A stretch of DNA of 64,000 nucleotides from Candidatus Bathyarchaeota archaeon (GTDB taxonomy: Archaea; Thermoproteota; Bathyarchaeia; 40CM-2-53-6). The notes beneath the pieces are model-generated. The model made no database searches. It was not told the origin of the DNA and saw only the letters and a program-made list of their open reading frames with translations. A program made the position numbers and the translations under genes. Where the stretch lies: positions 29,292 through 93,291 of the forward strand of contig VBBN01000034.1 of assembly GCA_005888735.1 (NCBI GenBank). The letters run 5' to 3'. Within the stretch, counting starts at the first letter, position 1, and every line of letters begins with the position of its first letter. This document shows, in pieces, positions 4,483 to 54,716 of the stretch.

Positions 4483-7323
4483 TTAGTGTATCTGGATGTT
4501 TCCGCCTTGGAGCGTTCCTGATTTTGAGTATCCTGTTCCGAGTTGAATGGAAAACGTATCTTGGCCTGCACCTGGCTCCGCTTTGTCTTGGACTGCGATC
4601 GTGAATGTCGTGGCGAAGCCGTTCGTTGTGCCTGTACCTGTAATCGTGGCGGTGTTCCCCTTGAAGTTGGCCGAGGTTATAAGATTGGTTATGAAGTCGA
4701 CTCCGCTTGTAGAATCCTTGTATGCGGCCTTTCCACTTACCCGTCCGGAGGAGCTGACCTTTACTTCGATGCTGAAGCCTCCGCGGTCCTGTTGTGGGTC
4801 GACGAAAATGTAGCCTCCGCCAGTGACTTTGCATGTGGTGCCTAGCGGACAGTTGCTGGGTGTTTTGGTCATGCCGACGACATAGTCGAAGACTCGTGTG
4901 GCGTCGGCGTCCATCATTATTGGGTTGCCGCCGGTGAACCCGAAGGTGAGGGTTGTGACACTGTAGAGCTTGTCCCCGGTGATGGGGCTGCCGATGTTAG
5001 ACAGTAGCGCGGTTATTGTGATCGTATTGGTGGCGGCGTTGATGGTGCCGGTCGCCGGTTGCTCGGCTGGGTAGACGATGATCTTGCAGTTCTGTGGTGT
5101 GGTTGTGACGCAGCCGCTACCTCGAGGTAATCCAGTCGGGTTGGAGGTGGCGGATGTTCCTGTTCCTGCGAAGAACACCGGTGGCTGGCCGCCGGTGGAG
5201 TTGGCGCCGAGGTAGAATATCCGGTAGCTTTCTTCTCCGTTGTCCCCGGTGGTGTTGAACTGCCAACGTGTGAGCCAGAGTATGCCAGTTGCCCCTGTGG
5301 GCGGTGTGAGGGAGGCGAGGTTGTTCAGTTTCATGGTGACTGTGAGGTGGGAGGTGTCGGGCTGGGAGAGCTGGGTGGAGAGTAGGTCGAGGCTGAGCTG
5401 GTTGGCGCCTGCGCCGAGCGGTGAGAAGTGAGGGAGCTGAGCGTCGCCGGCGGGGTCTGTTACTGTGGCTATGCTGGGATTATTGGAGGTGAGAGTTGTT
5501 CCGTAGGCGGAGGGTCCTGCTACTTGTGTTAGCTCGAAGAGGCTTGCCCCGTGGTGCTGGTTTGTCAGGTCGTTGACTACTATGCGGGCTGCTCCGTTGC
5601 TGTCGATGGCTAGAGTGAAGAAGTCGGCCAGAGTCCTGTCTCCCATGGAGGTTGTGCGGCCTAGGCCTCCGGTGCATATCTGGCCGTAGTCTGTGGGGTG
5701 CTCGCTGGCTTTAACCTGGTATATGATGGGAGTGGTGGTGGTTGCTCCGGTTACCTGGACGAGGTAGACGAACCACTTGATCGCTGTCGCTGCTTGGCGG
5801 TTGATGAGCCAGCTGGGAAAGCTGTTCGGGTCCCCGGGGGAGGCGGTCCCGTAGAATGCGCTGTCGACTATTCCTGGGGCTCCTCTGATGGCCCAGGGCA
5901 TAACGTTGCTGTTGGCCGGGTCGCCGTTGACTTGGACGGGCGTGGTCCAGGTGGTTCCCTGGTTTATGGAGGAGCTGAGGTAGACGTTGTTATTCGCGGT
6001 ATCTACCCAGACGGCGTAGAGGTTCCCAGCGGAATCTGTTGCCACATCAGAGAATAAGCGTCCGAGTCCTATTGAGCCACCAGGGCTTGTTGGAGCGTTT
6101 ACCTCGGTAAATACTAGGCCTGTTCTCTGGTCTGGGGCGACTGATGCTTTCCATATCCTTTCATGGTCGGGCCTGTTGCAGGGCAAGTAGAGGACCCTGT
6201 TTACCGGGTCGAAAAGTAGCCTTCCGCAACGGCCATCTGTTGTGATGCTGCCGGTCGTGGTTGCGGCTGCGTTCTGGTAGATCACTCCGCCGACTGGATC
6301 TGTAGGTCCTGTGGAGCCAGGTGAGGAGTAGATTTGCCAGCCGAAGGCTTGCTGGTTGAAGACGAGGAAGACCGTGTTGTCGTTGGCGCTAGACGTGAGG
6401 CCATTGTCGATTGCTAGCCACTGCCGGTCGTCGGCAGGCTGCCCTGTGACTGGGTTCGCTCTCCAAGTGTTGCCGCCATCGTTGGTGACTGCGACGCTTA
6501 CGGCTGCCAGTCCTTCAAGGTCTGCGAAATAGGCGTTTCCTATGTCATCTGTTATTATGTCCGTGTCCCCGCCTCCTGACGCGGCCGGGTTCGGCCTCAA
6601 GCCGTTAGGCGAAACGATGTGGAAGGTGTCTCCGTTGTCGGTGGATTTTGCGACGAAACCTTGGGCGGTGCTGAAACCCCAGGGGCCTGTTTCCCATATG
6701 TTGCCGTACTTGTCGATGTGGTTCAAGGGCTCTCCTTCGGTTCGTTGTGGGTCGATGATTGTGTGGGGTCCGAAGGCTATTCCTCCGGTTGGGAATTGTG
6801 GGTTGACGACTGATCCGCCGCTTGTGTAGGCTAGGGTGGCGGAGCCTGTGTAGTCTGAGGCGATGACTAGGAAGGGTGCTGTTCGGACTTCATACATGCC
6901 TGGCATCGGGCTTTGGAGGACGACCTGTTCCGATGTGGTTCCTCCCTGGTTAGAATGGCCTACTTGCAGGCCATCGCTTTGCCGGTAGATGTAAAGGTCG
7001 AAGTCGTTGCTCGAGCTTACCCAATTGATTGTGATGGTGACGGTTCCAGTGTTGAGCTGCCAGAAGTTGCTGGCCAGATTGAGATTGATAATGAAATGGT
7101 CGCAGAGCAGATTGAGAGGATCAGCGGAAGGAGGGCACGTAGCCGGGTCCCCGTTGACGCCGAACGCGTAGGTTGCTCCCTGCCAGTTTAGGGAGAGGTT
7201 CCCAGTGGAGAGAGTGCCGCTAGAAGGGTTGGCGGCTTCGGAGCGTTGGGCTAGTATTCCGCTTCCTGATAGAAGGATAGCGGCTAACAGAAAGGTTACC
7301 CTAGCGGTTGTTCTAAGGGAAAT
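4483..7323 (-). CDS. Large secreted BNR/sialidase-fold protein; true N-terminus upstream of the ORF-track start
   Basis: 807-aa ORF plus in-frame upstream extension (I)SLRTTARVTFLLAAILLSGSGILAQRSEAANPSSG... carrying a signal peptide; BNR-like repeats. Extension has no ATG/GTG/TTG; ATT at 7321-7323 is a candidate start. Confidence 0.75.
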   Translation of the reverse strand: MSLRTTARVTFLLAAILLSGSGILAQRSEAANPSSGTLSTGNLSLNWQGATYAFGVNGDPATCPPSADPLNLLCDHFIINLNLASNFWQLNTGTVTITINWVSSSNDFDLYIYRQSDGLQVGHSNQGGTTSEQVVLQSPMPGMYEVRTAPFLVIASDYTGSATLAYTSGGSVVNPQFPTGGIAFGPHTIIDPQRTEGEPLNHIDKYGNIWETGPWGFSTAQGFVAKSTDNGDTFHIVSPNGLRPNPAASGGGDTDIITDDIGNAYFADLEGLAAVSVAVTNDGGNTWRANPVTGQPADDRQWLAIDNGLTSSANDNTVFLVFNQQAFGWQIYSSPGSTGPTDPVGGVIYQNAAATTTGSITTDGRCGRLLFDPVNRVLYLPCNRPDHERIWKASVAPDQRTGLVFTEVNAPTSPGGSIGLGRLFSDVATDSAGNLYAVWVDTANNNVYLSSSINQGTTWTTPVQVNGDPANSNVMPWAIRGAPGIVDSAFYGTASPGDPNSFPSWLINRQAATAIKWFVYLVQVTGATTTTPIIYQVKASEHPTDYGQICTGGLGRTTSMGDRTLADFFTLAIDSNGAARIVVNDLTNQHHGASLFELTQVAGPSAYGTTLTSNNPSIATVTDPAGDAQLPHFSPLGAGANQLSLDLLSTQLSQPDTSHLTVTMKLNNLASLTPPTGATGILWLTRWQFNTTGDNGEESYRIFYLGANSTGGQPPVFFAGTGTSATSNPTGLPRGSGCVTTTPQNCKIIVYPAEQPATGTINAATNTITITALLSNIGSPITGDKLYSVTTLTFGFTGGNPIMMDADATRVFDYVVGMTKTPSNCPLGTTCKVTGGGYIFVDPQQDRGGFSIEVKVSSSGRVSGKAAYKDSTSGVDFITNLITSANFKGNTATITGTGTTNGFATTFTIAVQDKAEPGAGQDTFSIQLGTGYSKSGTLQGGNIQIH

Positions 7324-9456: not shown

Positions 9457-9651
9457 CGTGCTCTTCTGGTCCGTCGCGGGAAGGGCCGGCTGGGTCACTT
9501 TACCAGGAGCTGGGATGGTTTCAAGGGTCAACTTAGGGTCTGCGTAACAATCGAGACTCGCATACAAAAGGGTGTACCTAGGTCATTAGCCGAGGTCTGA
9601 TGGTTGGGGGAGAAAGGCTGTTAGGACCCTTGTACTAGTGGGCTGTGGCAA

Positions 9652-10233
9652 ATGAAGCCTGTGTTCTTCTCTTCACCATCTGAGCTGCGCAAGTGGTTTG
9701 AGCAATATCACAAAAAGGCGCAGGAGCTGTGGGTTGGATTTTACAAGATGGGTTCTGGTCGGCAGAGTGTGACTATGCCGGAGGCTGTGGATCAAGCCCT
9801 GTGTTTCGGCTGGATTGACAGTGTCCGGAAGAATGTTGACGCGGTGAGTTACATGAATCGGTTTACTCCACGGAAGCCTCGCAGTATCTGGAGCTCTGTC
9901 AATTCCAAGCGGGCGAAGGAGCTGGTCGAATTGGGACTGATGCAGCCCGCGGGTCTCATGGCGTTTCGGGAGAGGGATGCGGAGAAGTCGGGGGTGTACT
10001 CGTATGAGCGAAAGAGTTTCAGGAAACTCCCTGAGGTATACGAGCGCAAGCTGAGGATGAACGGGGAAGCGTGGAGCTTCTTCAAGTCACAGCCTCCGTC
10101 CTACCAGAGGACAGCAGGATACTGGGTGGCAAGTGCGAAGAGAGAGGAGACGAGGTTGAAACGGCTCGACATTTTGATTCGATACTCGGAGAAGGGAGGG
10201 ACAATCCCACCACTGACCAGACCGAGTCCTTAG
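9652..10233 (+). CDS. YdeI/OmpD-associated family protein
   Basis: LRKWFEQYHKKAQELWVGFYKMGSGRQSVTMPEAVDQALCFGWIDSVRKNVD. Confidence 0.85.
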   Translation: MKPVFFSSPSELRKWFEQYHKKAQELWVGFYKMGSGRQSVTMPEAVDQALCFGWIDSVRKNVDAVSYMNRFTPRKPRSIWSSVNSKRAKELVELGLMQPAGLMAFRERDAEKSGVYSYERKSFRKLPEVYERKLRMNGEAWSFFKSQPPSYQRTAGYWVASAKREETRLKRLDILIRYSEKGGTIPPLTRPSP

Positions 10234-10344
10234 ATGAGTAGCTCTTGGAATGTTTCATTGGCATTGTCGGGTTTCTTTTTGGAAACCTACTGCTTAGGCG
10301 TCCTGGGCGAGGCTGTCTTGAGTCGGAAAGCTTAATTCCGCGGG

Positions 10345-10356
10345 CCCACTGGTGGG
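10345..10356. promoter_or_regulatory. Palindrome CCCAC-TG-GTGGG, candidate operator of the AbrB/PIN pair
   Basis: 12-bp palindrome 15 nt upstream of the antitoxin start, with an extra GTGGG half-site at ~10361. Confidence 0.35.
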
Positions 10357-10371
10357 AGATGTGGGAAGGAA

Positions 10372-10608
10372 TTGGCAAGAACTGCAACCGTAGACGTTGA
10401 TGAGAGAGGCAGGGTTCACTTGCCTGCATCGATGAGGCGGGAGTTAAAGACAAGCAGGTTCAAGATATCGCTCGACAGGGGGAGGATTGTGATGGAGCCG
10501 GTTCAGCCGGCCGAGGCCGTGAAGGGAAAGTACAAGGGGCTTCTCAAGGTCAACATGGAGGAGCTGGAAGAGTCTCAGGAGCGCTTTGTAGCTGCAGGCC
10601 GCCGCTAG
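10372..10608 (+). CDS. AbrB/MazE-type (VapB-like) antitoxin
   Basis: ARTATVDVDERGRVHLPASMRRELKTSRFKISLDRGRIVMEPV, swapped-hairpin AbrB pattern. Confidence 0.75.
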   Translation: MARTATVDVDERGRVHLPASMRRELKTSRFKISLDRGRIVMEPVQPAEAVKGKYKGLLKVNMEELEESQERFVAAGRR

Positions 10609-11050
10609 CCGGCTTCCTTCGCCGCTTCTAGTCGAGGCGGATCTTTTCATCTCATACCTCACCTCGGACCACCACCTCGTTCAACACTTTCGGCCTGTTG
10701 TAGATGCTAGTCTGGAGGGGAAGCTGGACCTTTTGGTTTCGTCAGAGGTGTATGACGATGTCGTGGCCTGCTTGAGAAGCCAGGAGGTTCCTCTGGAGAA
10801 GGTTCGAGCGTTCATCCAAGACATGAGGGCTATTCCACACACAGCTCTTCCGGTCACGCTTGACGTCGCAATTACAGCTCTCGACCTTTACGTTAAACAT
10901 GGGGGGTCGAGAAAGCTTCACTACTTTGACGCGTTTCACGTCGCAACATCTCAGCTTGAACGACTTCCCCTTCTTACGAGTGACAGGTATATATTGGAAC
11001 ATTCCAGCCGACTCGGGACCAAAACGATCGAGGTGCGAGGCATCAGGTAG
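10592..11050 (+). CDS. PIN-domain (VapC-like) toxin, start codon uncertain
   Basis: In-frame upstream extension of ORF 10733: LLVEADLFISYLTSDHHLVQHFRPVVDASLEGKLDLLVSSEVYDD...YFDAFHVATSQLERLPLLTSDRYI; no ATG/GTG/TTG before the conserved VEADLFISYLT. Confidence 0.7.
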   Translation: MQAAASRLPSPLLVEADLFISYLTSDHHLVQHFRPVVDASLEGKLDLLVSSEVYDDVVACLRSQEVPLEKVRAFIQDMRAIPHTALPVTLDVAITALDLYVKHGGSRKLHYFDAFHVATSQLERLPLLTSDRYILEHSSRLGTKTIEVRGIR

Positions 11051-11293
11051 GAAGGAGGACATTCTGTCCTAAAACTAGGCACAACATTGTTCTGATGTGT
11101 CGAGCTCGATTAGCCTCATGTCCCGCTCCGAGTCTGCGGATGTTTGCATGTCCTCTTGGGATGGTCTTGGAATTAGTGCTTGGAGAGTGACTTTGTATTC
11201 AAGATTGTTATTCCACCGCCGGTCTAGACATCTCTCAAGCGATTGACGAAAAAAAAGGAGGGTTAGGGGTCTGCTGGAATTCTGGTGTATTTT

Positions 11294-13168
11294 CTAGAAT
11301 GTGCCTTTTGCTATGGCGATGTCTTGCTGGTTGACTGTTGTGGGTACGAATTCGAAGCCGAACCACCATGTGACTGTTTGCTTGTTGTTGGTGTCGGCCC
11401 AAACGGCGTGGAAGACGTTGTCTTTGCCGACTGCGATGCTTGTGTAGTCGCCGATGAAGCCGCCTCCGAATCCATGGCGGGAGTTGATAGGATGAGTGGT
11501 TACGATTTGGCTTACGTTGGTTGTGATGTCTGCGACTGCGTAGTCTAGGCGTGCGTTGTTGATGTAGTTTCCGAGTGTTAGGCAGTTGATCCGGCCGACG
11601 GCTGTGGGTGTTGCGGGCTGGGCGCAGGTCTGCCAGGGGGAGATGATGTCGGCTGCGTAGGCTGAGATGTAGACGCGGCCGTTGGGGGCTGTTGCGACTG
11701 ATGGGAAGAAGGTTTCAACGCGGCCCGTGTTGGAGGGTGCCTTGAGTGTTGTGCCGTCGGGGTTTGTGGCTGGATAGCCGATTGGTGTCCGGTTGGACGC
11801 GTCTATTGCTGGGTTGAAGGATTGTGGTGTGGTCCAGGCGTTTCCGCCGTCTGTGGATTTGCCGTAGACTACTGAGCTGTGGCAGTTGGCCCGGACGCTT
11901 GCAACGCCGCTGATGAAGAAGGCGCAGACGGGGTCGATGGTGTAGCTGGTGGCTGTGTTGCGGACTTCCGAGTTCCAGGTTGCGTACAAGTCGCCGTTTG
12001 GTGCTATGTCGGCGGCTGGGAAGCTGTTGACTCGGAAGGCTGTGTTGGCTGGGTTGAGAATGTCTACGACTTGGCTGACTGCTACTGGCTGGGTCCATTT
12101 CTTTCCGCCGTCTGTTGACTTTACCATCCAGATGCTGTTGTAGGTGGCGAAGCGGTCGCTTCCTTCCCAGAAGGCGTAGATTGTTCCGTCTGGTCCGACT
12201 AAGACGCGGCTTCCTTGGTCGTAGAGGACGTTGCCGACTATTAGTTGTCCGTCGGTGAAGGTTCGTCCGCCGTTGCTGCTGCTGGCGAACATGATGGGTG
12301 ATTGGACGTACCGGCCTGTTTGTGGGCTGAATAAGAATCGCGTCCAGGTGACGTAGATGTTGTCGCGGAAGCGGCTGTTAGCGTTCTGGTCGACTGCGAT
12401 CCATTCCTTGTCGTTGAGGGTGCTCTTGCTGGTTGTCTGGCCGATGAAGGTTGGGGGTCCCCAGTGGAGATCGCCGTTATTGTCGAAGGTTCCCTTGTTG
12501 AAGGCTACCGTGTTGGGTGCTGATAGGCGGTTGAAGCCTAGGCCTGCGAAGTACACGTTTCCTCTGGTGTCGAAGGCTAGCGCGGGGTCTCCGCCTGCGT
12601 CGTAGATTCCGCCGGTTAGGCGTTCGACTCCGGGGATGAGGGTTGCGAGGTGTTGTGGGTCTGTTGCGATGCAGCACCAGGTTTGTCCGCCGTTGTTGCT
12701 GTAGTATGTTCCGCTGTAAGCCTCTCCTTGGGCGCTGCAAGGTGCGCCGTTGAACGTGCATGGCCAGACGCGTGTGATGTAGTCGTTGCTGCCGACGACG
12801 ATCCGGTTGGGATTGTTCGGGTCAACGGCGATGGCTGGCTCGTTTTGGGGTGCTCCTGCGGCGTCCTGGTTGACGGTTATGTCTGGTGATTGGATCGTGT
12901 TTCCGTCCAAGGGGCTGGAGAGGACATAGGTTGGGGTGATGGCTGTGCCTGGGTAGGGTGGTGGTGCTTGGTCGCTGTTGTCTGCTTCTTCCTGGAAGAG
13001 GCCGCTGAGGCGGATGTAGAGGCCGGGGGTGTCGTTGACGCTGGCGTTTCTGCCGGCTAGGGTGTTGGTGTCGTAGGTTTGTATTGTTGTGGCGGTTATT
13101 GCCTGTATTCCGCCGCTTATCATGGCTATTGAGAGGACGAGGAAGATAGCTAGGGTAATCTGCTTCAA
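11294..13168 (-). CDS. Secreted BNR/sialidase-fold protein
   Basis: Signal peptide MKQITLAIFLVLSIAMISGG; EPAIAVDPNNPNRIVVGSNDY, STDGGKKWTQPVAV, STDGGNAWTTP repeats. Confidence 0.8.
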   Translation of the reverse strand: MKQITLAIFLVLSIAMISGGIQAITATTIQTYDTNTLAGRNASVNDTPGLYIRLSGLFQEEADNSDQAPPPYPGTAITPTYVLSSPLDGNTIQSPDITVNQDAAGAPQNEPAIAVDPNNPNRIVVGSNDYITRVWPCTFNGAPCSAQGEAYSGTYYSNNGGQTWCCIATDPQHLATLIPGVERLTGGIYDAGGDPALAFDTRGNVYFAGLGFNRLSAPNTVAFNKGTFDNNGDLHWGPPTFIGQTTSKSTLNDKEWIAVDQNANSRFRDNIYVTWTRFLFSPQTGRYVQSPIMFASSSNGGRTFTDGQLIVGNVLYDQGSRVLVGPDGTIYAFWEGSDRFATYNSIWMVKSTDGGKKWTQPVAVSQVVDILNPANTAFRVNSFPAADIAPNGDLYATWNSEVRNTATSYTIDPVCAFFISGVASVRANCHSSVVYGKSTDGGNAWTTPQSFNPAIDASNRTPIGYPATNPDGTTLKAPSNTGRVETFFPSVATAPNGRVYISAYAADIISPWQTCAQPATPTAVGRINCLTLGNYINNARLDYAVADITTNVSQIVTTHPINSRHGFGGGFIGDYTSIAVGKDNVFHAVWADTNNKQTVTWWFGFEFVPTTVNQQDIAIAKGTF

Positions 13169-13528
13169 AGATTTTCGGGCGGGGTGAGTGCTTCTAACAT
13201 ATAAGCCTGAGAGGGGTGGAAGACCGGCGAATGTTAAACAGGGTCGAAGTCTTACCGAGTTATCGACTCGACTGGCGAGCTATCCCGGTCGGGGGTAGCT
13301 GGTGCTGAATGTGCCTGGTTCTCCATTCTCTTGTTCATCTAGTAGGAAAGGGCCATGAAACGCGGAAGTTATTTGCGGCTCAGGGGCTCATAAGGCTAAT
13401 GGAAGAATGGCTCTCTGGAGTGATTTTGTTTGAGAAGCACAAAAGTGAGGACAGGCTCAGCGTGAATTTTCTATTTTGAAAACGGCATCTCTCTTGAGCT
13501 GACCGCACTCCTTCAGGAGGCTCGACTC

Positions 13529-40614: not shown

Positions 40615-41096
40615 ACACACTCTGGACTGTCCGAGAAAGCTACAGACTGTACTGTTCCATCGTCAAGTCTCGAGAGAGGAACTCCGCGTGGTTCAGAATC
40701 AGATTGTTACAGCTGAGACTCAATTGAAAAAGCTGAAGGGCTGAACGTAAAGAACGGGCGAACCTTCTCTTCCGAACTTCGCCTCCATTATGTAGCCTTC
40801 GTTATGAAGGGAGCGAACCGCAACAGCCCACTTGCTTTCCACGAAACTCATTATAGCTATCTATTGCAGCTGCCAACGAAGCCCAACTCTGGTCAGCTCG
40901 CGAAGTCTCTCAGAAAGGGCTTACGATACAATTGGTCAAGTCGTTCTATCATTCTATCTCTTTGTTCCCGACACAGAGGCACAAACGCTTCGAAGCCTAG
41001 TCCTCGGTTTGACTTGAAGAGACCTTCTGGAAGCGGTCTCGTCCAGCCTCTTTAGGGGGCAGCGGACAGGTTACCGAAGCACTCCGTCGCGCCTAC

Positions 41097-41246
41097 ATGA
41101 GAGGCGTCGAGTTGCGGATGTTCATGGAAGGACTTGGCCGACGCGAAGCCAACGGGGGGATTACGCTAGAGGATTTCGAGAAGTTCCTAGACGTGTTCGT
41201 AAAACACCCTAGTAAACACCCTGGTAAACAGCAGCCGCCCCCCTGA
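41097..41246 (+). CDS. Small ORF, possibly remnant of a longer element-encoded gene
   Basis: MRGVELRMFMEGLGRREANGGITLEDFEKFLDVFVKHPSKHPGKQQPPP; in-frame upstream codons (LEETFWKRSRPASLGGSGQVTEALRRAY) also look coding. Confidence 0.35.
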   Translation: MRGVELRMFMEGLGRREANGGITLEDFEKFLDVFVKHPSKHPGKQQPPP

Positions 41247-41270
41247 CATGGCCGTAGGTGAAGCACGAGA

Positions 41271-41747
41271 ATGACCAAAGACCAGAAAAAATTGGCTACG
41301 ACGCAGAAACCCGGTCAAAAGAAGAACCCGGAAGTCGAAGAAGCCTCGAATAGTCGAATAGTCGAAAATGAGCATTCGACAGGGGCCGACACGGCCGACC
41401 CCAAAGTGATTCAGCAAAGAAAAAGACGGGAAACTCTCATGCCCGCAAACATAGAAGCCATACAAAGACTTCGCCGAACAGGCGGCAGCATAGAGGATAT
41501 ACACAAACTCACCGGCTTCGGCGTCGCGACCGTCAGCAAGTACACTCAAGGCATAGAGCCGCTGGCCAAATATGTCCCCAACGGTGGGCCCGGTGACCAG
41601 ACGACTCTCCCAACTCTGACCCCTCAACCTGCGAAGACTGAAGCAGAGATTCAGCAACAATATCCACCGCAAAAGGAGACGATTCTTCACCAGGAGACGA
41701 AGAGTTACCTGTTCGATGACATAGTCTACGAAGGCTCCCGTGAGTAG
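41271..41747 (+). CDS. HTH-domain DNA-binding protein, element-associated
   Basis: MPANIEAIQRLRRTGGSIEDIHKLTGFGVATVSKYTQG. Confidence 0.55.
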   Translation: MTKDQKKLATTQKPGQKKNPEVEEASNSRIVENEHSTGADTADPKVIQQRKRRETLMPANIEAIQRLRRTGGSIEDIHKLTGFGVATVSKYTQGIEPLAKYVPNGGPGDQTTLPTLTPQPAKTEAEIQQQYPPQKETILHQETKSYLFDDIVYEGSRE

Positions 41748-45382: not shown

Positions 45383-46129
45383 ATGCGTGGTTCTATTATT
45401 GGAAGACAGTTCTGTGTCATCAACCTGGCGAAAACGGGGGAGAGCGAAGGAAAAGTCCTGGGTGCCTGCCGCGAACTGATTGAGAAGAGCGCCAAGCTCG
45501 TCGTGGCAGATTTCAACTTCAAAGATGTCGACAGACTACGGACGTTTTACTCGATCGCAAGGAAAACCGGGAGAAAGCTCGCCGTAACGCTCGGAGACGC
45601 GTTTCTCCTGAAACACCTCACAAAGGACCCGAAGCTCCAGGTTCCCCCGCCCGACGACAGCCACGTAGTCATAATCGTTCCAAAGAGAGGAACCGGCCAG
45701 TATCGCAAGGAGGACTACGACAGCGATGAACGGCAGTTCCTAAGCCAGCCGAACGCTTGGACCGCGGACAAGTTGAGCAAGGACCAGGCGAAGCTAATAG
45801 CCCACGTTAGCTACTACAACATAGGCGAGCTAATCGACATAAGACCAGAGATCGGCAGCTCGTTCATACACTCTCTGAGAGAACCTTTCAACGAGGAGAT
45901 GCTGGGGGATTTCCAGCGCCTCCACAAATGGCTCGAACACTTCGGGATGTCTTTCACTCAGTCCCACGCGTCTGGGCACGCGACTGGCGAGGAGTTGAAG
46001 CAGATTATTAAGGAGATTGAGGCGAAGACGTTGTTTCCCATTCACACCGAACATCCAGAACTGTTCAGGGAAATGGCCAAGGAAACCAGGGCAGTTCAGG
46101 TGGGAAGGACTTACAACCTATCTGGTTAA
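45383..46129 (+). pseudogene. RNase J-like beta-CASP exonuclease, C-terminal half only
   Basis: KVLGACRELIEKSAKLVVADFNFKDVDRLRTFYSIARKTGRK...NEEMLGDFQRLHKWLEHFGMSFTQSHASGHATGEELKQIIKEIEAKTLFPIHTEHPELF; metallo-beta-lactamase N-terminal half absent. Confidence 0.75.
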
Positions 46130-46257
46130 CTAGCAACGATCTCAACGCCAATATTGACAAATTACTAGTGGCTCTAAAGCTTTTCAGAGAATGCTCTCTG
46201 TAGAGGTCGAGTCCGTCTTTTTATTCTTACACACACGTTGGCTGAGAAGGTGTAAGA

Positions 46258-47385
46258 ATGGAAAGACAGGCTCCGGAATCTCCTTTTGAGGACTTACCAG
46301 AGGCCTTGGTCGAGGAGATGCTTTCGCATTACAAGAGACTTGGTGAGCAGCTCTCGGCCTCTCTGCAAGAGATACAATCCAATAAGGAGAAGATAAGGGA
46401 ATCACTAGGCTCCCAGAATCTTCTCAGAGCCGACTCGGCAGTCATCCACTCGCACGCGTATCCGACCACCTGCGGTGTCGACGGGTCCTACGCGATAGAG
46501 AGATTGTTGTCGACTGACATAGCTGCGATGGCAGGGGTGGCAGTAGAGGGACTGACTCCCCCAAGCGAGAAACGACATTGGCCCCGTCCACACTATCTAT
46601 GCGATGTTTCTACCGTTGCCCATAGAGATGCCACCACCTTGATCATCCGGGCAGTTATGGTTACGATGGAATTGGAGTTGGCAGCGCTTGCCCCACATGA
46701 CGTTGTCTTTCTCGACGGGTCTCTTACAACTCCACTAATTCATCTCAACCAAGCACTTGCAAGGCTCGGTGAAGTTCCCGAAGAGCTGTCCCGGGTCTTA
46801 CTGGGTCGGATCGGGTCCGCGTTGGACCACTACGCGGAGATTCTCGCCTCTAAGAGAACGGACAAAATCTTTGCAGGCGTTCCAAAATACACTAGCAGAA
46901 ACGAGATTTCGTCGGCGCTCGGACTGTCCAAGCACGAAGATCGCTCTTTGCTTTCATACATTTTGAGAGGCGGCGAGGTGATTGGGCCTAGCGATATGAT
47001 CAAACCGGAAGAGGACTGGCATTTTGGCAGCTTGCCCAGTGCAATGAAGGACAAGGCTAACCACATAATTTCCTCAGTTTACGAGCTGAGTGTTCTGTAC
47101 TATAGACCGTACGACTATTTTCCAGCGCTTCGCATAGAGGTTTCTCCCTCAGTTGCGAAAAATCAGGCCAGGTTATCAATACTTCTTGAATCGTTCCAGT
47201 TGCAGTGTGGAGCTCCAGGAATTGTCGAGCCCTATCCATTATACCTAGCTGACAGAATGGTGAAGCATCTGAGTACAGCTCTACCGGCGATAAGAAAGGC
47301 GACAACGATGGAAATGGCGTCGGGGCCGACACAGGATGTTGGAAGTATTTTCCTAGCTATGCAGGGTTATCGGACCGAATATTGA
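46258..47385 (+). CDS. nurA: NurA domain nuclease
   Basis: TTCGVDGSYAIERLLSTDIAAMAGVA, DVVFLDGSLTTPLIHLNQAL, ALRIEVSPSVAKNQARLSILLES; directly upstream of HerA. Confidence 0.82.
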   Translation: MERQAPESPFEDLPEALVEEMLSHYKRLGEQLSASLQEIQSNKEKIRESLGSQNLLRADSAVIHSHAYPTTCGVDGSYAIERLLSTDIAAMAGVAVEGLTPPSEKRHWPRPHYLCDVSTVAHRDATTLIIRAVMVTMELELAALAPHDVVFLDGSLTTPLIHLNQALARLGEVPEELSRVLLGRIGSALDHYAEILASKRTDKIFAGVPKYTSRNEISSALGLSKHEDRSLLSYILRGGEVIGPSDMIKPEEDWHFGSLPSAMKDKANHIISSVYELSVLYYRPYDYFPALRIEVSPSVAKNQARLSILLESFQLQCGAPGIVEPYPLYLADRMVKHLSTALPAIRKATTMEMASGPTQDVGSIFLAMQGYRTEY

Positions 47386-47398
47386 GAGGCGAGGAACT

Positions 47399-49165
47399 AT
47401 ACCGACCGACCAGCTGAAAAATTCGTTCGACCACGCTGAAAGAATAGGTGTAGTCGGGTCCCCATCTTCAACCAACAGCCTCGTTCTTGACATACTCGGC
47501 ACCGCAGCGGACAAGAAGCTGGTGGGAAGTCTGAGCATGTTCAACTTCACACAGGAGGCTAGTGACCATTATGCGCTTGGTCAGATTACCGAGATCAGGT
47601 TGAGGAATGTTTGGAGCGAGGATCCTACCATGAGGGGACTAATTCGTCAGAAAGGAAGAGTGGACCCGATCACTGAAAGGCAGGATACACACAACGCGAC
47701 GATGTTGGTCAGCTCAGTCTTTGTAAAAACTGCTAATGGCTTTGAACCCAGCATGCTAGGCACGGTGCCCGCTACCGGCACTTCCATCAAGCTGGTAAAC
47801 GAGCAGATCATGCATGACCTGCTTGCAGATTATGCTGTCGAACTCTTCTACCTGGGAAAAGCGTACGGTTCTACGGTTCTTCTGCCCATGTGGTTCAAAC
47901 ACTTTGGGTTTGAAGAGGGGGGAGCAGGAGAAGCGTACCACATCGGGGTCTTCGGCAAGACAGGATCTGGAAAATCCGTCCTGTCAAAGATGCTGATGCT
48001 TGGCTATTCAAGGCACAAAGAGATGACTATGTTCGTTCTGGATCCCCAAGGCGAGTTTGCGAAGCTCCGCACTGATCCCCAGATTAGCGAAATTCTTGCG
48101 AAGAAGCTTTCGAAAGAGGTCAAAGTTTACGACCTCCACAACCTCGTTCTGACAGGAAACGCTCTTTTCAGAAAGGTTCTAACTCTATCCGGATTTTTCG
48201 ACAGGCTGGGGATATATCTCGACGAGAATCAGGCGAGAGCCGCCGATCAAATAGAGTCAATCCTCGGAGGAAAAAGGCCGGGTCTGTCAGGAATAGCCAG
48301 TGCGACCAAGCCATGGGACTACCACAAGCGTGAGACCTTCGACGCTGTCCACAGAGCGTTACAGAGTGAGGATGTTCTTCAGAACATTTACACAAGCAAG
48401 GAACTTCGTGAGCGAGTGAGATCCGCTCTTAGCGTGGCTAACAGCGACGACCTTTACGACCGCTGGGCGAAGGTTGCGAACTTGTTTGCTTACGAGGGTA
48501 GGAAAGAGTATGTCAAGATTAAGGATCTTACTGAAAGTGTGACTGCAGGAGCCAAGGGCCAGATAATCATGATCAATCTGTCCGAAACTGACGTTCCATT
48601 GAACATACTCTGGAATGATGACATCAGAATGATAGTGATCAACGAGTTCATAAGATCACTGACCTCTGAAGCACAGAGCACGTTCAAACAGGGAAAGGCG
48701 CTAAACACATTGGTCGTCTTGGACGAAGCTCACCGACTAGCACCACGAGAAAAGCAAGAAAACCCTGAATTCGAGCTTGTCAAGAGTACGCTGAAGGATG
48801 CCGTGAGAACGACCAGAAAGTACGGGCTAGGGTGGATGTTTGTGAGTCAGACTCTTTCCAGCCTTGATAGGGAGATAATCAACCAGATCCGAGTCTACAT
48901 CTTCGGCTTCGGATTGGCTTATGGAATTGAACTTCAGGCGCTAAGAGACATTATCGGCGGAAACGAGGAGGCCATAAGGCTCTACCAGCTCTTCAAAGAC
49001 CCCCAGAGTACTCCAAGACAAAAGGAATACTCTTTCATGACGGTTGGGCCTATTTCACCTCTCTCGTTTTCGGGAATCCCGCTCTTCTTCCAAGCGCTTC
49101 AATACACTGACGGATTCGTGCATGCAAACGCGTCCACCTTGAACCATCTCAGGACCACCCCCTGA
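47399..49165 (+). CDS. herA: HerA-family hexameric ATPase/helicase (DUF87)
   Basis: Upstream in-frame HAS-barrel start ERIGVVGSPSSTNSLVLDILGTAADKKLVGSL; Walker A FGKTGSGKSVLSKM; Walker B LNTLVVLDEAHRLAPR; SQTLSSLDREIINQI. Confidence 0.9.
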   Translation: MPTDQLKNSFDHAERIGVVGSPSSTNSLVLDILGTAADKKLVGSLSMFNFTQEASDHYALGQITEIRLRNVWSEDPTMRGLIRQKGRVDPITERQDTHNATMLVSSVFVKTANGFEPSMLGTVPATGTSIKLVNEQIMHDLLADYAVELFYLGKAYGSTVLLPMWFKHFGFEEGGAGEAYHIGVFGKTGSGKSVLSKMLMLGYSRHKEMTMFVLDPQGEFAKLRTDPQISEILAKKLSKEVKVYDLHNLVLTGNALFRKVLTLSGFFDRLGIYLDENQARAADQIESILGGKRPGLSGIASATKPWDYHKRETFDAVHRALQSEDVLQNIYTSKELRERVRSALSVANSDDLYDRWAKVANLFAYEGRKEYVKIKDLTESVTAGAKGQIIMINLSETDVPLNILWNDDIRMIVINEFIRSLTSEAQSTFKQGKALNTLVVLDEAHRLAPREKQENPEFELVKSTLKDAVRTTRKYGLGWMFVSQTLSSLDREIINQIRVYIFGFGLAYGIELQALRDIIGGNEEAIRLYQLFKDPQSTPRQKEYSFMTVGPISPLSFSGIPLFFQALQYTDGFVHANASTLNHLRTTP

Positions 49166-49330
49166 TCTTTCACTCGGTCCCATGTGTCTGGGCACGCGAC
49201 TGGCGAGGAGCTGAAGCGGATTATTGGGGAGATTGACGCAAAGACCTTGTTTCCTATTCACACCGAGCATCCGAGACTGTTCGTGGATATGGCCGAGGAA
49301 GCCGAACGTAGTCTTGGGACTCTTATCTAA
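49166..49330 (+). repeat. Direct second copy of the RNase J-like 3' end
   Basis: Manual translation SFTRSHVSGHATGEELKRIIGEIDAKTLFPIHTEHPRLFVDMAEEAERSLGTLI*; ~86% nt identity by eye with 45950 onward. Confidence 0.8.
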
Positions 49331-49686
49331 CTACTGACACTTTCCCTGGAATCCCCGATAGTGACAGCAATATGCTCCTAGGGTTTGATCTTCGAATAGT
49401 TTTCCTACGTCTGTGCCATCGTTTCACATATACTAGACCAGGCAACCCGGCCACCGTCAAAGACATGACCAGAACCACAATCAACCATAACGGTGGCGGG
49501 AGTGGCGGCGGGCTTGGGCCCTTCACGACGGTTACTCTTGAAGTATCTGCCGCAGAGTTTGCCAGCACCGTCTTTCACAATGAGCTCGACGTCGTACGAT
49601 CCCATGGTCGCATACCTGTGAATCACCGATCGGCCAGTTGCAGATGTCCCATCGCCAAAGTACCATTCATAGTTTGCTATTTCCAT
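49323..49686 (-). pseudogene. PKD domain-TM anchor C-terminal fragment, frameshifted
   Basis: YEWYFGDGTSATGRSVIHRYATMGSYDVELIVKDGAG | NSAADTSRVTVVKGPSPPPLPPPLWLIVVLVMSLTVAGLPGLVYVKRWHRRRK; shift at AAA run ~49558. Confidence 0.65.
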
Positions 49687-50020
49687 GTTGTCGGATGATA
49701 CGAAAGCGTCAAATTCCGACTACGGTTCGACACTGGCCTGGGTAGACAGATCCCTGGCGAACCTGCGGACAAAAGGGGTCTACGACGAGATCAATGGAAT
49801 GCTGGTTGGGCGTACATTAACAGCTGGTTTCAAGCCAGCATCGACAGGCATTGGTCTTGACAAGATAATCTTGGAGAACACGAGAGGCTATGACTTTCCG
49901 ATCATGATGAACATGGACTTTGGACATACTGATCCACAGATGACGTTGCCGATAGGTGTCAGAGCAACCATGCGTGCCGAGGAGAAGTATCTGAGTATTG
50001 ACGAGCCTGCGGTGTCGTGA
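49685..50020 (+). pseudogene. LD-carboxypeptidase (S66) C-terminal fragment
   Basis: RSLANLRTKGVYDEINGMLVGRT...YDFPIMMNMDFGHTDPQMTLPIGVRATM; N-terminal half with catalytic Ser missing. Confidence 0.65.
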
Positions 50021-50595
50021 CGCTGTTGAGGGATGGCTGAGACAGCCAGGTCCCAAGAAGAAGTGAGAGAAAAAAGAGGGTTGGAAGGCCTCAGTCGCGA
50101 GGCTCTTCCTTATACTGTTCCTTTCTAGCGGGCTTTTCGATAGCCCCCGGGGTACCACGGTGCACGCTCCCCGACTAAGCGATGCTGTGGTGCTGTGGAC
50201 TGACCACGGGCTCGAACCATCCCAGCTAGGCCTGACAAGTGTAATTGCTGGCGTAGGTCGCTTACGGGTCTGGAGCCGGAACGGCACTTAGCAGTGAGTG
50301 CTAGGAATGACCAGTTGCCATCAGCAGCTCTTGTTTCGCCGTGTTCACCCTGGCTCGAAGACTCTGTATCCGCCGTGTCTGGGGGGTGTGGTCGGCTTGC
50401 AAGTTCCCGTATATCATTCCTCCACGAGAAAATTCCCATTTATTGTGGCGAGATTTGCCACCTGATTCTGAAGGCTCTGCACGAGGCCGGGTCCAGAAGC
50501 ATCGAGTCAGAACTCCTTGACTTCAAGAGGCGACCAATAATCAACCGTACGAGTGCTCCGACAGCCAGAGACATCCGCGGCTGGACCCGACTGTG

Positions 50596-50718: not shown

Positions 50719-51521
50719 CTAGTTCATCAGGGGACGGACCCCTGTCCCTATGTCTGCAAACATTATGTCGCGAGTTTTCTGATAGCCCAGTTTTTCGAGG
50801 ATTCTCAACGAGGGTTTGTTTCTAGATTCGACGTAAGCAATGGCCCTTTGTGATCTCTTGAGAGCTTCTATCGTTAACGCAGAAGTAACTGTTGTACCTA
50901 GCCCGAGCCCCCTGTAGCGTGGGTGTGTGTAGAGTCCCCCGAGCATCCATCCATGCCGGCTTTCGATGTAGGTGCCTGCAACACATACGATCTTTCCGTT
51001 TACGAAGATACCATAGACTGTTTGACTGCTCAGCCACTTTTCATAATTTGCTAACTTCTCGAACCAGCGGTTTGGCGGGGATAGAAGTCCAAGAGTTTCT
51101 CGGCCTCGGTAGACGGGATTTTGACCGGTTCATATTCTGAGCTGACTGATGAGATCGGGCTGTCTGTGAGGCTTAGCTCATTCTCAAGACAGCTCCATAT
51201 TGATCTGTATCTTTCCGCCACAATGTTGTATCTGGCTGGCGAGACGAGTATCGCAAATTTTTTCCATGATAAGACATCCATCAATTTTGAACCTATTTCT
51301 TCTGATTCTGCTTCTAGTATTGCCATTGGATGAGAGAGGCCGCTGTACTGCAGCAAGTAGCCTAGCATTCTGTTTCCCTCGAAACAGGAGTATAGTTTCG
51401 TGTTATCTGGATCCCGGGTCAAGTTCCAAATCGCGTATAGATTCTTAACTGGATCTCTCTCCAGCTCTCTGAGTAGTTTTGATCTTCCGACCTCGGCTGA
51501 CTCTAAGAGTTTGATTGTCAA
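50719..51521 (-). pseudogene. GNAT family N-acetyltransferase, frameshifted
   Basis: ...EAEKLLDFYPRQ | RWFEKLANYEKWLSSQTVYGIFVNGKIVCVAGTYIESRHGWMLGGLYTHPRYRGLGLGTTVTSALTIEAL; one missing A near 51071 restores frame. Confidence 0.75.
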
Positions 51522-51595: not shown

Positions 51596-53221
51596 TCAGG
51601 ACGTCTCGTTGGGCGGGGTCGTTTTCGTCGTCGCTATTATCTTCGATATCCTGGCCTTGTCCATCTCCACGTCTTCCCAGATCGACGTGTAGCCGAGAAT
51701 CTCCAGTACTTTGCCCTCTTCCTCCTTTACCCCTGAGGCCTCGATTATCCCTAGAGCATCTGCTAGCCTCTCGACACCTCTCAGATTCTCGTCGATCTGG
51801 TTGAGCTTGGCCTTTGAGATTAGAAGATCACCGACTCTCACATACCCTTCGGGTTTAAAGTCCCGTAAGGCCATCCTTAGCGACGCCACCGCAACACCTT
51901 TCTCATCAGCAACCTCTTTAATGCTGACCACGTCCCCATTCAGCGCGATTGCCCCTCCTCTGTTGAGTTTGTCGGCCTGCTCCCTTACGATTGAAGCCTC
52001 CCTCTCCTTCAGATGCTCGATTATCGGTTTCATCGGCACGTCCTTCTTGTAGTATATCACCAGCGCTCTTCCCTTGAGCCTCTCGAGCTTGGAGCAGGCC
52101 AAACCCTCGTCGGCCGCGATGATCATATCTATCCCGGCGGCAATCGAGTTGAGCTTGTTTATCTTCCTCTCAAGATACTCGGGAGTCCAGAAACCGACCA
52201 CCTCAAGGTAGACCTTCACGCCATCCTTCTCGAAGCAAAAGTCCGGGATCAGCACGTGGGTGCCTGCGATGAGAGGCTCAGGCTCCCTCCTTAGTACCCA
52301 TCCTGTACCATGGGAGAGGAACGACCTGGAAAACCTCTCCTCTGTGCTGCTGTCGTACGGCTGGCCGGCCTGCGGCTGTTTCGCATTCTGACCAACTGTG
52401 TCGTCGACTCTTCCGACATTCGTGATGAGACCCTTCAGTTCTTCGCTATCGGCTTCGAAACTGTACACTTTTCCTCCCTTGCTTCTGGCGAGAATCTCTG
52501 CCTTGATCGCCCACGAATCTGACAATATTATTTGAGGGAGGAGCTTTGCTATCGATGTCCCATATCTCTCTGTCATCTTGAAGAGGGAGAAGGGGCCGTC
52601 GAGTGAGACCTTGAACTGGCCCTCTTCCCTGTCAATGGAGTAGATTAGACCCAGCCACTTCACGTTCCTGAAGATGTTCTTCCAGTTGCCGGATGCGGAG
52701 AACTCGACCCTGAGCGACTTGAAGAGTAGAGTCTGCGCTAGGGAGAGGTTGTAGTACTTGAGAAGCGTATCGGGGCCGGGGAACGGCTTGAAATCCCTCA
52801 GTATCAGTTCGTCCTCGATATCGCTGAAGAGTGTCCTCTCTAGTGCTTCAGAAGAGACGCCTAATTCGGTAGAGACCCTTTGAAGCACCGTGTTCTTCTC
52901 CCCTGGGCTTGACGCCCTGGTCCTGCTAGCCTCTCTGAATACGGTTCTTCTGGCCTCGACAGGGTTCAGCGCATTCTCGGCCTCAAAGGTCGATCTCCTA
53001 TCGAGAAGGATTGAGAGTCCTCTGACCAGCTTGAAGTCGTGTCCGTCGTTCTCTGCTTCCTTTAGGTTCTCTAGGAGTTCGCCTTTCCTTTTTCCCACTC
53101 CATCTCTATAGGTGCCCGTTATCCTCTCCGCCAGGGCCAAGCTGCCAGTATCGAGAGCTACGTAGAGTGGGCGTATCCTTCCTTTGGAAATTCTTGCCCG
53201 GAGCAGGTTTGACGGGAGCAT
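51596..53221 (-). CDS. bax1: Bax1 (DUF790) nuclease, XPB partner
   Basis: MLPSNLLRARISKGRIRPLYVALDTGSLALAERI...; PDFCFEKDGVKVYLEVVGFWTPEYLERKINKL. Confidence 0.9.
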   Translation of the reverse strand: MLPSNLLRARISKGRIRPLYVALDTGSLALAERITGTYRDGVGKRKGELLENLKEAENDGHDFKLVRGLSILLDRRSTFEAENALNPVEARRTVFREASRTRASSPGEKNTVLQRVSTELGVSSEALERTLFSDIEDELILRDFKPFPGPDTLLKYYNLSLAQTLLFKSLRVEFSASGNWKNIFRNVKWLGLIYSIDREEGQFKVSLDGPFSLFKMTERYGTSIAKLLPQIILSDSWAIKAEILARSKGGKVYSFEADSEELKGLITNVGRVDDTVGQNAKQPQAGQPYDSSTEERFSRSFLSHGTGWVLRREPEPLIAGTHVLIPDFCFEKDGVKVYLEVVGFWTPEYLERKINKLNSIAAGIDMIIAADEGLACSKLERLKGRALVIYYKKDVPMKPIIEHLKEREASIVREQADKLNRGGAIALNGDVVSIKEVADEKGVAVASLRMALRDFKPEGYVRVGDLLISKAKLNQIDENLRGVERLADALGIIEASGVKEEEGKVLEILGYTSIWEDVEMDKARISKIIATTKTTPPNETS

Positions 53222-53243
53222 CTCTTATCGCATCATCATTTTC

Positions 53244-54716
53244 CTACGCGACCACTACTTCTTCACCCTCGTCGTAAAAATCCTCTTTGTCCTTGCCGAA
53301 TTCATCTCTGACTTCCAGCCGTCCAGCCTTCCTCCTCTCCTCCCTCTGGCCGCGATCATGTTTCCTGTTCCGCGTCCTTCTGCTGCTCGTCCTAGTCTCG
53401 GAAGTCTCCCTCGATACGAGCTCTATCAGCCTCGCCTGCCCCTTTCCTTCGCTCTTCCTCAGGAGTCTGCCAAGGCGCTGGATGAACTCCCTCGAGCTGC
53501 CTGTCCCGCTCACGATGACCCCGAGAGAGGCCTCGGGCACATCGATCCCCTCGTCGAGCACCTTCGAGGTCACAATGGCCCTATAGCTCCCCTCCCGGAA
53601 GCCCTTCAGCACTTCGAACCTCTCCTCCTTTCCAGTGGTGTGGGTTATGAACGGGAGGAGAAACCGCCTCGATATCCTGTACACGAGGTCGTTGTGCTGG
53701 GTGAAGATCAATACTCTGTCGTCGGGATTCGAGTGGAGTATCTCCTCGAGCTTGTCCAGCTTCGCTTCGGAGTTGAACGCGACGGACATTGCCCTGTTCC
53801 TCGCCAGGAGAGCCTGCCTCGCCAACGGATCCCTCGAGCTCCTCATAATGAACCTCCGGAACGCGATAGGGGAGTTGAGCCATATCCTGTTCTCCTCCAA
53901 ATACTGCGTGAACACGCTGTAGTTCTTCTCGTACTCCGCCTTCTCCTCCTGCGTGAGCTCGACGTTCACCTTCTCGAGCCGAAAGGCAGAGAGATATCTT
54001 CCAGCAAGGTCTTCAGGCTTGAGCCTGTAGACCACGCCCCCGATTAGTCTCGGAAGCTCGAGGTGGAGCATGTCCTCCCTCTCGTAGGTCGCGGTCAGCC
54101 CCATCCTGTACGGAGCAGTGAACATCTCCGCTATCTGCCTGAAGCTCTCACCTGGAAGATGGTGCACCTCATCGAAGATGAGGAGGCTGAACCTGTTGCC
54201 GAGCTCTCCGGCCCTTATGTACGCGGATTCATAGGTGCAAATCGTAACGGCCTTGACACTGTTCTCTCCACCGCCGTACACCCCGACCTCGATGCCGAGT
54301 TCCTCCTGTACCCTCTTCCTCCACTGCTCCAGCAGGTCCAGCGTCGGAACGATTACAACGGCAGGCAGGTTCACAAGCTCGATTGCCTTCATGGCAATCA
54401 CCGTCTTTCCTGCACCGGTTGGCAGGACTATCACCCCGCGTCTTCCTGCCTTGTCCCACGCGCCGAGCGCCCTCTTCTGGTACCCCCTCATGGTTACGGT
54501 TCTGCATTTCATCAGGTCGGGATAGGGAGGCAGGTCCTGAACAGTGTCCTTGACTGTCGAGAGGTCGCTCTTGTTCAGAAACTCGACTATCTCCCCGTAG
54601 TATAGGCCCTGTGCTCTGAATGCCCGCACCCTATCGTCCCAAGTCGAGTAGGGAACCTTGGCATCGCTCTTTATCAGAATGGTTCCCTTGTTGAAGAAAA
54701 GGTAGGTGGGTTGCAT
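53244..54716 (-). CDS. xpb: XPB-like SF2 helicase
   Basis: RGYQKRALGAWDKAGRRGVIVLPTGAGKTVIAMKAIE; LLIFDEVHHLPGESF; RVLIFTQHNDLVYRISRRF; QRLGRLLRKSEGK. Confidence 0.93.
   Translation of the reverse strand: MQPTYLFFNKGTILIKSDAKVPYSTWDDRVRAFRAQGLYYGEIVEFLNKSDLSTVKDTVQDLPPYPDLMKCRTVTMRGYQKRALGAWDKAGRRGVIVLPTGAGKTVIAMKAIELVNLPAVVIVPTLDLLEQWRKRVQEELGIEVGVYGGGENSVKAVTICTYESAYIRAGELGNRFSLLIFDEVHHLPGESFRQIAEMFTAPYRMGLTATYEREDMLHLELPRLIGGVVYRLKPEDLAGRYLSAFRLEKVNVELTQEEKAEYEKNYSVFTQYLEENRIWLNSPIAFRRFIMRSSRDPLARQALLARNRAMSVAFNSEAKLDKLEEILHSNPDDRVLIFTQHNDLVYRISRRFLLPFITHTTGKEERFEVLKGFREGSYRAIVTSKVLDEGIDVPEASLGVIVSGTGSSREFIQRLGRLLRKSEGKGQARLIELVSRETSETRTSSRRTRNRKHDRGQREERRKAGRLEVRDEFGKDKEDFYDEGEEVVVA

Follow-up and report, generated by a model that had tools for sequence, protein, structure and literature searches.

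The DNA described here is a stretch of 64,000 nucleotides (the window) from a Candidatus Bathyarchaeota archaeon (GenBank assembly GCA_005888735.1, contig VBBN01000034.1, positions 29,292 to 93,291) in which two adjacent genes on the + strand, nurA and herA, are predicted to encode a nuclease and an ATPase. Both belong to a family of nurA-herA pairs scattered over archaea and bacteria that we call the mobile family. The nurA gene (46258-47385) is predicted to encode an RNase H-like nuclease of 375 amino acids that was recognized by Pfam (PF09376; 28.2 bits against a cut-off of 21), by a NurA family profile built here (E 9e-156), by alignments, and by an AlphaFold2 model (pLDDT 92). The best matches to this model in the PDB were the NurA proteins of T. 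kodakarensis, S. solfataricus, and P. furiosus (probability 1.00). Its putative catalytic residues, D75, E138, and D153, align with the DGG, E, and DGS motifs of S. solfataricus NurA (2ygk); across 44 relatives D75, G76, and D153 do not vary, and E138 hardly does. A profile score above the cut-off, the RNase H-like fold, and the catalytic D-E-D residues together place the protein among the NurA nucleases.

The herA gene (47399-49165) has nurA immediately upstream and is predicted to encode an ATPase of the hexameric DNA-translocase type. Its product matched the HerA domain in Pfam (PF01935/DUF87; 50 bits against a cut-off of 23.2) and a HerA family profile (E 9e-253, with the match running from 47396). 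Alignment showed that the HerA motifs are kept, among them Walker A (GKTGSGKS), Walker B (VVLDEAH), and the RKYGLGW region. The conserved reading frame reaches upstream of the first ordinary start codon, a GTG at 47522, to about 47399 with no ATG, GTG, or TTG in that interval. The start of HerA that is conserved in the family, ERIGVIGSPSST, is encoded there, and translation from GTG 47522 would remove the conserved beginning of the HAS-barrel. Followed back to the first stop, the frame offers non-standard starts only, the likeliest being an ATA at 47399 behind GAGGCGAGG.

These observations raise the question of whether the window copy is an incipient pseudogene that has lost the herA start codon and a partner gene, druA (see below), amid the gene debris that surrounds the pair. 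We consider this somewhat unlikely. Apart from this, the two frames run uninterrupted for about 960 codons and keep their motifs, GAGGCGAGG lies just before the ATA, and an assembly error at the start-codon base, or use of an alternative start, could explain the missing codon. Differences between the window genes and those of their nearest relative fall mostly at third codon positions, suggesting that selection has acted on the pair for most of its history. The G+C content at third codon positions is 0.55 for nurA and 0.58 for herA, whereas four other window genes have values of 0.65-0.76. Judged from their sequences, the NurA and HerA proteins look active, and the pair is presumably still expressed.

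The genome (2.39 Mb in 72 contigs, 93% complete) contains another, distinct nurA-herA pair on contig C57 that was not matched by the family profiles built from the mobile NurA and HerA. A housekeeping HerA-NurA-Mre11-Rad50 set is recognized by linkage of these genes and vertical inheritance in the clade, and the window pair does not have this character; the SMC/Rad50-type genes that score over the cut-off sit on contigs other than that of the window. A set of 60 genomes from the same family, order, and class contained no close relative of the window HerA, only distant matches (23-26% identity over most of the ATPase, or short). HerA of the window type was found in five of 400 genomes sampled from the phylum, its own included (4 of the 399 others). 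The four other proteins share 66, 47, 42, and 36% identity with it, and each is encoded in a nurA-herA pair but each in a different context; two of these carriers are a Nitrososphaeraceae metagenome-assembled genome (MAG) and Nitrosotenuis chungbukensis.

We searched for further relatives in species-representative genomes with a profile of four archaeal HerA proteins, a scan with a single sequence having found none. This yielded 157 HerA relatives from archaea and bacteria, the best 80 of which, with 44-66% identity over nearly the full length, were analyzed as loci. The 80 come from Lokiarchaeota, Methanoculleus, Thermoplasmata, Chloroflexota, Bacillota, Nitrospirota, Bacteroidota, Acidobacteriota, Planctomycetota, Pseudomonadota, and others. 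In a phylogenetic tree, the window HerA groups with that of the Nitrososphaeraceae MAG (support 99). The archaeal clade around them has 16 members, one of them from a spirochaete MAG, and the archaeal sequences from a Ferroglobus MAG and from genome G332 are nested in a bacterial clade. Errors in MAG binning could account for single cases of this kind, not for the overall cross-domain pattern. The profile matches and the tree thus identify the window pair as a member of this family. An earlier reading of the window from its letters alone (the sequence-only reading) had suggested that the pair is a transferable module rather than the housekeeping one. This is supported by the distinct pair on C57, the patchy occurrence in the phylum, the wide distribution elsewhere, and the cross-domain nesting in the tree. 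The opposite case named in that reading, a sole NurA/HerA inherited vertically in all relatives, does not hold given the C57 pair and the absence of the window type from its relatives.

All-against-all clustering of neighboring proteins revealed one further conserved family next to nurA-herA. This family is DruA (Pfam E 1.5e-99; PADLOC E 3e-104), a component of the Druantia system. Profile searches for gene order showed that nurA lies directly upstream of herA in 75 of the 80 loci and that druA, nurA, and herA stand in a row in 50, separated by median gaps of 8.5 and 6 nucleotides, which is operon-like. Somewhere in the locus, druA is present in 57 of the 80; like the window, 13 relatives with enough upstream sequence lack it. 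Absence of druA is usual in the archaeal branch, and the window copy is a DruA-less orphan of the family. Across the 400 genomes of the phylum, DruA scored over the cut-off only in genome G165, about 0.4 kb from the nurA-herA pair. The herA of that genome (locus L072, 8751-10328) is interrupted by one TAA inside the match, which suggests that this module is decaying. No solved structure is similar to DruA by sequence; its model resembles only GNAT acetyltransferases, with weak E values (best 0.013) and a probability of up to 0.99, and the DruA domain, under its former name DUF4338, has been described as GNAT-like (PMC10853773). We found no report of druA-nurA-herA in the open-access PMC literature, preprints and subscription papers being outside this search.

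Many of the loci carry known defense genes beside the pair. At a Methanoculleus locus (L089) these are BrxL and PglZ of BREX, and type I restriction genes occur at three loci (L099, L101, and L135), the first of which also has a HATPase and a methyltransferase. A DruE-like helicase adjoins the pair at L090, an AriA/GajA-like ATPase is encoded at L102, a HATPase with Vsr and a C5 methyltransferase at L070, and AbiEii with a methyltransferase at L072. These neighbors were assessed by inspection with no background count, making their enrichment a matter of judgment.

Taken together, these results lead us to consider it likely that the archaeon gained nurA-herA (46258-49165) by horizontal transfer, that the pair belongs to a cross-domain family whose fullest form is druA-nurA-herA, and that it is an orphan of a widespread HerA translocase-nuclease defense module. 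Several observations weigh against this. Neither the window nor the rest of the genome, at its 93% completeness, yielded a druA, and the herA start codon looks lost or non-canonical. Defense models in PADLOC and NCBIfam matched HerA only weakly (HerA_antiphage_2 gave 28 bits against a cut-off of 850), and neither collection has a model for NurA of the window type. There is no obvious defense gene alongside the pair at several archaeal loci, including that of the nearest relative (L088). Two conserved HerA peptides served to draw the 80 loci, which are not independent of one another. Finally, we infer the defense role through guilt by association.

A different explanation is that the window pair serves DNA repair in an accessory role, as a paralogue gained by lateral transfer that would take part with Mre11-Rad50 in ordinary end resection. 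The fold and motifs are those of the repair NurA-HerA, and there are relatives with suggestive company: a calcineurin-like phosphoesterase and an SMC/Rad50-like ATPase come after the pair in G332, and an SMC family ATPase is encoded near the HerA gene on actinobacterial plasmids. In the window, however, mre11-rad50 was not seen near the pair, the genome already has another nurA-herA pair, and the spread of the family is patchy with defense genes as company. A study of T. kodakarensis HerA-NurA itself doubts a direct role in resection and suggests antiviral defense (PMC12977600). We therefore regard a repair function as improbable. The G332 locus (L071, 7805-14799) is a set of four genes in which nurA-herA is followed by the Mre11-like (calcineurin-like) phosphoesterase and the SMC/Rad50-like ATPase.

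More distant relatives of HerA (24-34% identity) are encoded on large plasmids of Rhizobium, Natribaculum, Euzebya, Rhodococcus, Corynebacterium, and Dietzia. This occurrence, together with weak matches of the window HerA to conjugation ATPases and CedD, would fit a module for the maintenance or transfer of plasmids or other mobile elements that serves the element rather than host defense. We think this quite unlikely because the plasmid relatives are distant and many relatives lie beside host defense genes. In addition, no HerA relative was found in a phage collection or in viral contigs, in peptide-based scans of limited sensitivity. On three actinobacterial plasmids (L021, L023, and L025) the related HerA lies near an SMC family or AAA ATPase in a similar gene order, and these plasmid proteins are possibly a further branch.

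If the window pair is an orphan of a defense module, as we prefer, its mode of action can be sketched from known HerA-NurA complexes, in which double-stranded DNA is pumped through the HerA hexamer into a NurA dimer (PMC9960219, PMC12977600). By analogy, HerA of the mobile family would assemble into a hexamer that pumps double-stranded DNA into a NurA dimer for cutting. The task of the pair would be destruction of invading DNA and not routine end resection, because its spread is patchy, it keeps company with BREX, restriction, Druantia-like, and methyltransferase genes, and it is coupled to DruA. With its GNAT-like fold, DruA could be a sensing, licensing, or modifying partner; one guess is that the nuclease is switched or aimed through modification of a protein or nucleic acid by DruA. 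We infer both the DNA-pump and nuclease activity and the job of DruA from such resemblances. More tentatively, and with slightly less than even confidence, we propose that druA-nurA-herA constitutes an immune system not described before and shared across domains. In it, HerA-driven NurA would shred foreign DNA, and DruA would either recognize or tag that DNA or give the nuclease its license to act; the DruA-less archaeal pairs would be a reduced form acting alone or with nearby restriction systems.

The family shares features with several known systems. HerA acts with other nucleases against viruses in SIR2-HerA and DUF4297-HerA, according to the citations of these systems in PMC12977600. As in the family described here, a gene for a HerA-type hexameric ATPase is joined in them to a nuclease or effector gene, and the systems are mobile and found in defense islands. 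In contrast, the partner here is NurA (with or without DruA), and the window HerA scores below the cut-offs of their models and is not assigned to them. The HerA-NurA of archaea and Deinococcus that is linked to DNA end resection consists of the same two protein families, encoded by adjacent genes, with the same NurA fold and catalytic residues. The pair described here differs in belonging to a distinct family that is patchy, cross-domain, and often preceded by druA, and in having no linkage to mre11-rad50 in the window. Druantia type I (DruABCDE) has DruA in common with the family, and the DruE-like helicase at L090 is a further likeness, but druB, druC, and druD were not seen in the operon, where nurA-herA stands in their place. 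The window itself lacks DruA, and no DruE-like gene was found by the pair among the window proteins scanned, so it does not belong to Druantia type I. A cluster of nurA, csm6, and herA by CRISPR arrays in Pyrobaculum (PMC3396285) likewise ties a paralogous nurA-herA to antiviral immunity. Compared by its description only, that cluster is unlike ours in its reported vertical inheritance within Thermoproteales and its coupling to csm6 rather than druA. Capture systems based on HerA/FtsK, DndFGH included (PMC10853773), also recruit such pumps against invading DNA, with a different architecture and with NurA unmentioned there.

HerA-nuclease modules are thus already known, and what is new, as far as the open-access PMC literature goes, is a hitherto unnamed NurA-HerA family. 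The cellular role of NurA-HerA is disputed between end resection and defense (PMC12977600), and druA comes from an anti-phage system already known, with its own role still to be assigned. A cross-domain family that lies among defense genes and forms an operon with druA would allow a direct test of the roles of both in culturable bacteria, and carriers of this kind include Tepidiphilus olei, Thermanaerothrix daxensis, and Caldanaerobacter subterraneus.

The pair is bracketed in the window by copies of the 3' end of an RNase J-like gene. The sequence-only reading had described this repeat, and we confirmed it: positions 45950-46084 and 49166-49300 are 86.8% identical over 136 alignment columns (E about 1e-37 by blastn and local alignment), which is by far the strongest self-match within the window. 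Taken without gaps, the repeat is 138 nucleotides long with 86% identity, its left copy at 45950-46087 and its right copy at 49166-49303, both on the + strand. The right copy opens on the base after the herA stop codon (TGA, 49163-49165). The left copy is part of an RNase J-like C-terminal half (45383-46129, + strand), a pseudogene scrap truncated at its 5' end. As judged by tblastn with full-length RNase J, its homology begins at about 45431 and covers roughly the C-terminal half of archaeal RNase J proteins of 440 amino acids, with the N-terminal, catalytic metallo-beta-lactamase half missing. The right copy lies in a scrap of 54 codons (49166-49330, + strand) directly 3' of herA. Both pieces match RMMBL, the C-terminal domain of RNase J in Pfam (E 5e-7 for the left and 2e-7 for the right). 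The two ends that the sequence-only reading described are therefore present, and to them must be added a third RNase J-like scrap at 50402-50587 (+ strand; best tblastn E 8e-11) corresponding to about residues 89-145 of the 440.

A functional RNase J, with metallo-beta-lactamase, beta-CASP, and RMMBL domains in one frame, is not encoded at this locus. The order of the pieces (C-terminal half, tail, N-terminal part) requires at least two broken copies or a rearrangement. An intact full-length RNase J, which along with a second nurA-herA pair was something the sequence-only reading had proposed looking for, is encoded on contig C65. It is 38% identical to the window piece and falls within the clade of the archaeon's own family; the window piece falls outside this clade and is not its orthologue. 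Divergence between the two tails (dN, nonsynonymous, 0.17; dS, synonymous, 0.35) was estimated over 48 codons and is too uncertain for dating the duplication or judging selection. The RNase J pieces appear to be debris of a decayed paralogue with no role in nurA-herA.

Following the idea of the sequence-only reading, we considered whether an RNase J paralogue had served, at its 3' end, as the entry point of the cassette through recombination or site-specific integration, leaving the gene end in duplicate. The exact start of the right copy after the herA stop would fit such an event, and a tyrosine recombinase-like gene (XerA/phage integrase; 39279-40592, + strand) precedes the left RNase J scrap by about 5 kb. 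This recombinase match is weak (39 bits against a cut-off of 220), and no att-like or target-site repeats surround the gene beyond chance-like matches of 17-30 nucleotides. No integrase is encoded between 46130 and 49165, as it would be in an integrative element seated at a gene 3' end. The left RNase J gene is itself truncated at the 5' end, and a third scrap lies downstream. RNase J does not accompany the pair through the clade, being found beside nurA-herA in none of the 80 relatives and at none of the four other loci of the phylum; we therefore rejected it as a part of the cassette. Direct repeats bracket the cassette at 5 of 51 loci compared with 5 of 33 in a same-side control, and with no enrichment they were rejected as a hallmark of it. 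Two relatives, L089 and L114, also have direct repeats near both sides of the pair and resemble the window arrangement, yet they are within the control background. Given also that other scraps around the pair are shared with other contigs, delivery by an RNase J end, or recombination via it, is not supported and seems to us very doubtful.

The repeat at L089 is 237 bp long (91% identity; 6199-6434 and 10246-10482) and overlaps the end of the neighboring gene, as in the window. That at L114 is G+C-rich and 93 bp long (95%; 5266-5357 and 9639-9731). One copy comes directly before druA and the other directly behind herA, so that they bracket the cassette; they may be a terminator present twice or a small mobile repeat. 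In genome G025 an RNase J-like paralogue and a herA occur together on one contig; we dismissed this as coincidence since they are 6 kb apart and the long gene on the NurA side is a different one.

The 11 kb around the pair form a mosaic of duplicated scraps, some of which recur on other contigs. On one side, a duplicated block at 41068-41704 has 97-98% identity to contig C27 and in part 89% to C65. On the other is the C-terminal scrap of an LD-carboxypeptidase (S66; 49685-50020, + strand; Pfam Peptidase_S66C), and positions 49814-50063, which take in this broken gene end, are 97% identical to C27. These two blocks, which flank nurA-herA in the window, recur on C27 (L085) at 10538-11413 and 13017-13264, where they are 1.6 kb apart with 97-98% identity and one of them is inverted. 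The C27 copies are a recent duplication of gene scraps. The RNase J repeat (87%) is one more scrap duplication, probably older than those shared with C27, and alone it is no marker of a cassette.

Further to the right, on the - strand, a GNAT acetyltransferase gene (50719-51521) is apparently split in two, its C-terminal part matching FR47 and its N-terminal part being unassigned. Beyond it is a pair encoding Bax1 (DUF790) and an XPB helicase (51596-54716, - strand). A search of 20 other genomes from the archaeon's family found no Bax1, while contig C17 of the same genome carries a Bax1 scrap of 35 amino acids with 80% identity.

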